From: Hyphomonadaceae bacterium
GTDB lineage: Bacteria > Pseudomonadota > Alphaproteobacteria > Caulobacterales > Hyphomonadaceae
Direction of reading: 5' to 3'
Length of the DNA: 64,000 bases
NCBI GenBank assembly: GCA_024743315.1
Contig: JANSWU010000002.1
Location: 186,001 to 250,000, forward strand
This document shows, one piece after another, positions 61,942-64,000 of the stretch. The notes beneath the pieces are model-generated. The model did no database searches and had not been told where the DNA came from. It saw only the letters and a program-made list of their open reading frames with translations. Made by a program: the position numbers and the translations under genes. Position 1 is the stretch's first letter. Every line of letters starts with the position of its first letter.

Positions 61942-62059
61942 GTGAATGCTCCTCTACTCCACATGACGCTACTCAACCGTCTAAATTTGGCAAGCTTTTG
62001 TCATTGCGACACTGCGGCAGACGTCTATGTAAGGGGCGAAGATGACAGGAGACCCTTCA

Positions 62060-62542
62060 ATGACGATTTCAGTTGGCGACAAACTCCCCGAAGCGACTTT
62101 CATGGAAATGACGGCAAATGGCCCCGAGCCCGTGAGCACAGCCGATGTTTTTGCCGGCAAGACTGTGGCCTTGTTTGCCGTGCCCGGCGCCTACACGCCG
62201 ACCTGCTCTGCCAAGCACCTGCCTGGCTTTGTCGAGAAACAAGGCGATCTTTCTTCCAAAGGCGTGGATGAGATCGTCTGCACCTCGGTGAATGATGTGT
62301 TTGTCATGGGCGCCTGGGGCAAGGATAATGGCGTCGATGGCAAGGTCCGGATGCTCGCCGACGGCAATGGCACTTTTGCCAAAGCGCTCGGGCTGGAAAT
62401 GGATGGCAGTGGCTTCGGCATGGGTCAGCGGTCGCAACGCTATTCCATGCTGGTCAAGGATGGCACTGTAGCAGAACTAAACGTTGAGCAGGGCGGTGGT
62501 TTTGAAGTTTCAAGCGCAGACTACTTACTCGCACAGCTTTAG
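62060..62542 (+). CDS. Peroxiredoxin (Prx5-like)
   Basis: KTVALFAVPGAYTPTCSAKHLPGFVEK; ATG at 62060 preferred over 62042. Confidence 0.93.
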   Translation: MTISVGDKLPEATFMEMTANGPEPVSTADVFAGKTVALFAVPGAYTPTCSAKHLPGFVEKQGDLSSKGVDEIVCTSVNDVFVMGAWGKDNGVDGKVRMLADGNGTFAKALGLEMDGSGFGMGQRSQRYSMLVKDGTVAELNVEQGGGFEVSSADYLLAQL

Positions 62543-62610
62543 AGCGAGCGAATAAAGATCTGTTTCAAGCTGGAACAGATCCTCAAGGTTTCGTAACGGA
62601 ATCGGGTGAG

Positions 62611-62645
62611 AACGGCGTGTTTCCATGGGAAATGCGCCGTTTTTC
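62611..62645 (+). terminator. Terminator-like hairpin (conformer A) in the leader of the SPFH gene
   Basis: AACGGCG-TG-TTTCC-atg-GGAAA-TG-CGCCGTT (two G-U wobbles) followed by TTTC. Confidence 0.65.
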
Positions 62646-62684
62646 GATGAATAATTATTGAAAAACGGCAAAATCCTTCCCATG
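62624..62684 (+). promoter_or_regulatory. Nested inverted repeats (conformer B) mutually exclusive with hairpin A
   Basis: CATGGGAA(62624)...TTCCCATG(62684) enclosing GCCGTTTTTC(62636)...GAAAAACGGC(62669). Confidence 0.65.
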
Positions 62685-62715
62685 TGAATCTTGGTTCAAT
62701 CAGGGAGGACCATAA

Positions 62716-63633
62716 ATGGAAATGAATTTAATTGTACTCGGCCTGTTGGCAGTTGCGGCTCTGGTGCTGATCACATCTGCAGTCAAAGTCGTGCCTCAAG
62801 GGTTTAATTATACTGTAGAGAACTTCGGACGATACACGCGCACGCTCGGTCCGGGCCTACACTTCATCATGCCCTTCTATCAGCGCGTTGGGCGCAAGAT
62901 GAACATGATGGAGACGGTGCTCGATATTCCGACCCAGGAAGTGATTACCCGCGACAATGCGCAAGTCTCTTGTGATGCGGTTGTGTTTATCCAGGTCGTC
63001 GATCCAGTTTCGGCCGCCTATGAGGTCAACAATCTTGAAAATGCGATCACCAATCTGTCGCTGACCAATATCCGGACCGTGGTCGGGTCGATGGATCTCG
63101 ACGAGGTCTTGTCCAATCGCGATGACATCAATGCGCGGCTTTTGTCCGTGGTCGACGCGGCGACCAATCCATGGGGCGTGAAAGTCACGCGGATTGAGAT
63201 TGCCGACCTGTCACCACCAGCCGACATTACGGAAGCCATGGCGCGTCAGATGAAAGCCGAACGCTTGAAGCGGGCGGAAATTCTCACCGCAGAGGGCGAC
63301 AAGCAATCGGCGATTCTGAAAGCAGAGGGCCTGAAACAGTCTCAGATCCTCGAAGCTGAAGGTCGGCGCGAAGCGGCCTTCCGGGACGCTGAGGCGCGGG
63401 AGCGGGAAGGCGAAGCGGAAGCCAAAGCGACCGCCTTTGTGTCTGAAGCGATCGCCAAGGGTGACGTCAATGCGATCAACTACTTCCTTGGTCAGCAATA
63501 TGTCACCGCGTTTGAGAAGCTGGCCTCAGCCGGCGGCAACAAGACGGTCATCATTCCAGCAGAGTTCAGCTCGATTATCGGAACGATTGAAGGCATTCGC
63601 GGCCTGACGGACGCGGCCAAGGATAAAGCCTAG
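62716..63633 (+). CDS. SPFH/Band 7 domain protein (stomatin/QmcA-like)
   Basis: VPQGFNYTVENFGRYTRTLGPGLHFIMPF; TRDNAQVSCDAVVFIQVVDP; coiled-coil Glu/Ala-rich segment. Confidence 0.94.
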   Translation: MEMNLIVLGLLAVAALVLITSAVKVVPQGFNYTVENFGRYTRTLGPGLHFIMPFYQRVGRKMNMMETVLDIPTQEVITRDNAQVSCDAVVFIQVVDPVSAAYEVNNLENAITNLSLTNIRTVVGSMDLDEVLSNRDDINARLLSVVDAATNPWGVKVTRIEIADLSPPADITEAMARQMKAERLKRAEILTAEGDKQSAILKAEGLKQSQILEAEGRREAAFRDAEAREREGEAEAKATAFVSEAIAKGDVNAINYFLGQQYVTAFEKLASAGGNKTVIIPAEFSSIIGTIEGIRGLTDAAKDKA

Positions 63634-63642
63634 GAGATCATC

Positions 63643-64000
63643 ATGGAAGGCTTAGACCTCGTACTTTGGCCCCCAACGGCCTGGCATTGGCTGGCCTTGG
63701 GACTGTTCCTCCTCTCCATCGAAATGATGACAGGCACCTGGGACTTGCTGTGGGTTGGCTTGGCGGCTTTGTTCACCTCCGCCTTCGCCGCCTTCGCGCC
63801 AGCCGGGATTGCTGGCTGGGAAGGACAATTGGTGTTCTTCGCGATCGCTTCGACCGTGCTGTTCATCATCGGTCGCACCGTGTTCCGATCGATGCGCGAA
63901 AACATAAAAGAACATCCGACCTTGAACAAAAGGATGGCTGGAACCCTCGGACAACGCGGCGTGGTCGCCGCGGACTTTTCCGGTGGCCTCGGCCGCGTGA
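63643..64000 (+). CDS. NfeD family membrane protein, N-terminal part (truncated by window end)
   Basis: Open frame MEGLDLVLWPPTAWHWLALGLFLLSIEMMTGTWDLLWVGLAALFTSAFAAF...; 9 nt after SPFH stop; absent from ORF track because it runs off the window. Confidence 0.85.
   Translation, partial: MEGLDLVLWPPTAWHWLALGLFLLSIEMMTGTWDLLWVGLAALFTSAFAAFAPAGIAGWEGQLVFFAIASTVLFIIGRTVFRSMRENIKEHPTLNKRMAGTLGQRGVVAADFSGGLGRV

Follow-up and report, generated by a model that had tools for sequence, protein, structure and literature searches.

The window analysed here is a 64,000-nucleotide stretch of the 3.3 Mb genome of a Henriciella-like member of the Hyphomonadaceae, whose nearest named relatives belong to Henriciella. 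Toward its 3′ end a peroxiredoxin gene is followed, after an intergenic region of 174 nt, by the genes of an SPFH/Band 7 protein and of a small membrane protein in the position of NfeD. The latter, a protein of 157 amino acids, gave no match above threshold in Pfam or NCBIfam. The genes and the elements between them are:

62042 to 62542, + strand: open reading frame of a peroxiredoxin of the Redoxin/AhpC-TSA family (Pfam PF08534, E 2.5e-34), with A as its predicted terminator.
62611 to 62644, + strand: hairpin A and T-tract, the predicted intrinsic terminator of the peroxiredoxin gene, from its strings, stem covariation and alignment.
62624 to 62631, + strand: CATGGGAA, 5′ arm of the outer helix B, in the apical loop and 3′ arm of A; complementarity to the −10 region kept family-wide.
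62636 to 62645, + strand: GCCGTTTTTC, 5′ arm of the inner helix B, at the end of the terminator stem and the T-tract.
62655 to 62671, + strand: TTATTGAAAAACGGCAA, conserved promoter block and copy of a dispersed motif (2 mismatches), including the 3′ arm of inner B (62660 to 62669).
62658 to 62663, + strand: TTGAAA, predicted −35 element of an RpoH-type promoter; ATTGA is invariant in 73 leaders.
62678 to 62685, + strand: TCCCATGT, predicted −10 element of this promoter, overlapping the 3′ arm of outer B (62677 to 62684); the architecture is like that of dnaK.
62691 to 62693, + strand: predicted transcription start of the SPFH gene, placed about 7 nt past the −10 element.
62703 to 62709, + strand: GGGAGGA, Shine-Dalgarno (SD) sequence of the SPFH gene, for which CCTTCCC in the −10 region is a possible pairing partner in a read-through RNA.
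62716 to 63633, + strand: open reading frame of the SPFH/Band 7 protein (PF01145, E 2.6e-39).
63643 to 64000, continuing beyond the window end, + strand: open reading frame of the small membrane protein.

The initial annotation described the intergenic region as a leader RNA in which a terminator-like hairpin (A) and two nested downstream helices (outer and inner B) exclude each other, as in attenuators and riboswitches. All six strings that make up these helices were found at the coordinates given for them, and a T-rich tract follows A at 62640 to 62644. Of the shuffles of the region, 0.6% had a perfect inverted repeat of at least 10 bp and 1% had at least two of 8 bp or longer, so the inverted repeats of the leader exceed chance. 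The mutual exclusion of A and B was borne out for one of the two B helices. Outer B is incompatible with the upper part of A, but distal inner B is not, since the minimum-energy fold contains both, with pair probabilities of 0.94-0.97 in the upper part of A and of 0.73-1.0 in distal inner B; competition between A and inner B is limited to 3-6 basal pairs. Outer B has a pair probability of about 0.02 and costs about 3 kcal/mol. The whole leader folds at −63.6 kcal/mol, better than shuffles (z −5.3), which speaks in favor of a structured regulatory leader.

Orthologous SPFH upstream regions were taken from genomes of the family and of GTDB, yielding 73 distinct leaders with the promoter block in common. 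Nearly all leaders with an upstream peroxiredoxin gene carry, at the same place, a hairpin that differs in sequence and precedes a T-tract. In an unbiased scan, the pairing of matched windows was compared with that of windows swapped between species for 325 window pairs, and the A stem gave the top signal (Z −11.6; −8.6 in a separate test). At interior non-Watson-Crick positions of the stem the orthologues showed 41 G-T and 0 A-C combinations, the pattern expected under selection on the plus-strand RNA. The region 62611-62644 thus has both a stable hairpin directly before a U-tract and a stem kept by compensatory change, and like known intrinsic terminators it combines a GC-rich stem and a short loop with a T-tract soon after the stop codon. 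As judged from these properties, A is a conserved Rho-independent terminator of the upstream peroxiredoxin gene. A consensus terminator scanner did not list A, probably because the initial T's of the tract are part of the A stem. Directly 3′ of the peroxiredoxin stop codon, at 62557-62581, lies another hairpin, GATCTGTTTCA-AGC-TGGAACAGATC; it has no T-tract and is changed in near relatives.

The position of A relative to B bears on attenuation. Because the 3′ arms of B come after the T-tract of A and would be transcribed once the decision at A has been made, B could not decide termination at A, whatever the start site. This leads to the question of what the downstream arms of B represent. The RpoH/sigma32 heat-shock promoter consensus is CTTGAA-N13-17-CCCCATNT (PMC4263515), and the RpoH1 promoter of S. 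meliloti is CTTGAA-N15-16-CCTATAT (PMC4843759). 3′ of the terminator, the leaders read TTATTGA(A/T)(A/T)A(A/T)CG..AAA and then CC(C/G/T)AYNT or a close variant, and in the window the corresponding segment, ATTGAA-N15-TCCCATGT (62657-62685), matches the consensus at 11 of 13 positions. When scored against CTTGAA-N13-17-CCCCATNT, 69 of the 73 leaders reached 10-12 matches out of 13, against a maximum of 9 for reversed leaders, and in 70 of 73 the best match sits at the promoter block with a spacer of 14 or 15. The region upstream of dnaK in the same genome contains CTTGAA-N15-CCCACATG, with the same spacing as the window promoter. The −10 variants of the relatives (CCGATNT, CCTATAT, CCCCAYNT) also resemble this promoter class, and one relative (L024) carries CCTATAT, the −10 of S. 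meliloti RpoH1 (PMC4843759). Two features are unlike known RpoH promoters, namely the A that replaces C before TTGAA in the window and the unusually conserved AACG(G)CAAA after the −35 element. The promoter block TTATTGAAAAAC is retained in leaders without an upstream peroxiredoxin gene and terminator (L073, L074, L010).

The 3′ arms of B therefore coincide in position with conserved DNA that we infer to be an RpoH (sigma32)-type promoter of the SPFH gene. From the position of this promoter, SPFH transcription is predicted to start near 62692, beyond B. The cis-regulatory RNA of the initial annotation presupposed a start no further downstream than 62684. A sigma70-type scan of the region yielded a sole site, within the peroxiredoxin gene, and a search of the accessible literature for NfeD or stomatin together with RpoH found no report. 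The groES gene of the same genome has no clear match to the RpoH promoter type; its upstream region (L221) carries a CIRCE-like inverted repeat, TTAGCAGTC...GAGTGCTAA, pointing to HrcA control. Two other promoter arrangements were considered and rejected. An invertible promoter between inverted repeats disagrees with the promoter block having the same orientation in all leaders, and a divergent minus-strand promoter that uses the copy of the −10 within the terminator lacks a −35 at workable distance in the relatives read.

The two B helices differ in their conservation. Inner B, between the terminator end and the −35 block, did not covary among the orthologous leaders (Z −0.9 to −1.6); it results from the GCCGTTTTT at the end of the terminator and the AAAAACGGC of the conserved −35 block. 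In addition, this block is one copy of a palindromic DNA motif, TTATTGAAAAACRATAA (variants TATCG-N5-CGATA), that is dispersed in the genome. In this genome 22 matches with up to 3 mismatches were found versus 6 for the reversed pattern, and seven relatives gave 24 matches with up to 1 mismatch versus 0 in controls. The motif, whose members are sometimes paired, looks like a putative operator, and an additional regulator may bind at the −35 block. It is situated mostly in promoter regions (G000 loci L190-L211; relatives L237-L256), and its neighbors include genes for DUF2807 and Bax1-I proteins, a histidine kinase before pstC and an outer-membrane efflux gene. A search for the exact palindrome retrieved no relevant paper.

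For outer B, the loop and 3′ arm of A pair better with the −10 region within the same leader than with −10 regions taken from other leaders. This was assessed by a permutation test of matched versus swapped partners, short of full phylogenetic modelling, which gave Z −6.7 for 36 representatives and Z −5.9, −5.1 and −3.75 for 33, 19 and 9 increasingly divergent ones. The first windows had been picked after examples were seen; this selection concern is answered by the unbiased scan, in which outer B was the second signal among the 325 window pairs, and by removal of the discovery clade. Z was −5.5 after exclusion of the clade of the window and −3.5 (p 0.00025) after exclusion of the two strongest clades. 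Controls using the −10 reversed or complemented, the 5′UTR or upstream sequence gave Z of about −2.3 to +2.5. Base composition was rejected as the cause, since Z is no stronger than about −2.3 with reversed −10 sequences, as was a direct repeat with a 5′ arm resembling the −10 (Z −0.16). Examples of the pairing are CATGGGAA/TTCCCATG in the window, AGATCGGT/ACCGATCT in L012, CATCGGTA/TACCGATG in L021 and GGTGGGG/CCCCACC in L050. GGGG is present within the loop window of 38 of 40 Hyphomonas-type leaders, and peroxiredoxin terminators away from an SPFH promoter (L224; L225-L227 in Ponticaulis-like genomes) have no such loops. Both sides change with complementarity kept, and direct compensatory events are few. 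In Hyphomonas alone the two arms are nearly invariant, so that outer B showed no covariation (Z −0.5), and leaders of the H. marina-like clade pair little or not at all. Counting G-U as a pair raised the signal no more than counting A-C, giving no indication that selection on outer B acts through RNA.

By these comparisons, the complementarity between terminator loop and −10 is conserved across the family while both sequences change, and it is a real signal rather than mere coincidence. It is also where A departs from known intrinsic terminators, since in most lineages its loop complements the −10 of the promoter that follows. Compensatory pairing of B in orthologous leaders, which the initial annotation had made a touchstone, thus exists for the outer helix and not for the inner one. 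The alternative offered there, in which A is simply the peroxiredoxin terminator and B a coincidence or dispersed repeat, agrees with our results for A and for the 3′ arm of inner B but not for outer B.

A and B as alternative states of an SPFH leader RNA that switches expression would account for the covarying loop/−10 pairing and, like attenuators and translational riboswitches, the leader has competing helices and an anti-SD-like CCTTCCC. Such a switch predicts covariation of both helices, whereas outer B gave Z about −6 and inner B did not covary. The order of elements is moreover wrong for termination control, the arms lie in promoter DNA that the main SPFH mRNA is not expected to include, and the leader has no conserved aptamer-like core; Rfam gave no match of note for it. 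Pairing of the −10 region with the SD sequence, the anti-SD arrangement, is not conserved among leaders (Z −1.1, p 0.14), and SD accessibility did not differ consistently between real and shuffled upstream sequence (p 0.49). A three-way switch of anti-anti-SD, anti-SD and SD was rejected on the same two results. An attenuator or riboswitch is accordingly very improbable, and the cis-regulatory RNA originally proposed fails on helix order, predicted start site and inner-helix covariation.

The explanation we favor, with a probability of roughly 0.8, is that the intergenic region consists of a terminator and an RpoH-type promoter, forming punctuation between two genes and not a regulatory leader RNA. 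Transcription of the peroxiredoxin gene would end at A by Rho-independent termination, and about 15 bp past A a promoter of the heat-shock sigma type would serve the SPFH gene, with its −35 and −10 elements as the downstream arms of B. An SPFH mRNA made from it would normally have a leader of about 24 nt containing neither A nor B. Any action of outer B would be limited to read-through RNA or to the DNA itself. In Hyphobacterium/Maricaulaceae-like relatives outside the group (L092, L094, L096, L102, L105, L107) the gap between the peroxiredoxin and SPFH genes is only about 20-30 nt and the terminator is absent, suggesting an ancestral peroxiredoxin-SPFH operon that was later split by a terminator and a promoter. 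This makes read-through plausible by giving it a history, a point that favors an RNA switch as well.

For outer B itself we tentatively prefer a role confined to transcripts that read through A, in which pairing of the loop with the −10 RNA would form a loop-to-tail pseudoknot that might, for example, shield or present the SPFH ribosome site or affect RNA stability. The geometry of a terminator stem combined with loop/−10 pairing in a putative read-through RNA resembles an H-type pseudoknot, and the persistence of family-wide covariation after removal of the discovery clade, the GGGG loops and their absence from terminators away from SPFH all argue for it. Unlike known pseudoknots, this putative one has a promoter element as partner strand. 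Against it are the missing G-U preference, the weak or absent pairing in the H. marina-like clade, the lack of covariation within Hyphomonas and the inconsistent effect of upstream sequence on ribosome-site accessibility; negligible read-through would leave it without a substrate. Taken on its own, it is rather unlikely.

A process acting on DNA, either template switching at nearby inverted repeats during replication or a two-arm DNA-binding protein, could also have produced the loop/−10 complementarity. Both arms adjoin the AAAAACGGC/GCCGTTTTT inverted repeat, a possible seed for template switching, the missing G-U preference fits DNA as well, and the dispersed motif too sometimes occurs in pairs. 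However, in the window the inner and outer arms are 4 nt apart on one side and 7 nt on the other, a difference that simple copying from a template would remove, and the differences in sequence between clades are incompatible with a fixed DNA-binding protein. An origin in DNA is improbable in itself; together with the pseudoknot it is among the likeliest accounts of outer B. That the terminator and the adjacent heat-shock promoter co-evolve, with loop/−10 pairing coupling peroxiredoxin termination or read-through to SPFH expression through a pseudoknot or an RNA-promoter contact, is likewise a doubtful proposal.

The arrangement is ordinary punctuation plus one surprising feature. An apparent two-state leader RNA between co-directional genes can thus be a terminator followed by a promoter with complementary elements, and the promoter assignment predicts that the SPFH-NfeD pair is under heat-shock (RpoH) control in the Hyphomonadaceae. 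The tracking of the −10 of the next promoter by a terminator loop across genera was unexpected and, if functional, would be a new way to link neighboring transcription units. In one genome (G014; L010, L224/L236) about 5.5 kb of other genes separate the peroxiredoxin gene from the SPFH gene. The breakpoint lies inside the terminator: its 5′ arm has been lost, the 3′ half and the promoter are retained, and the peroxiredoxin gene has a different terminator.
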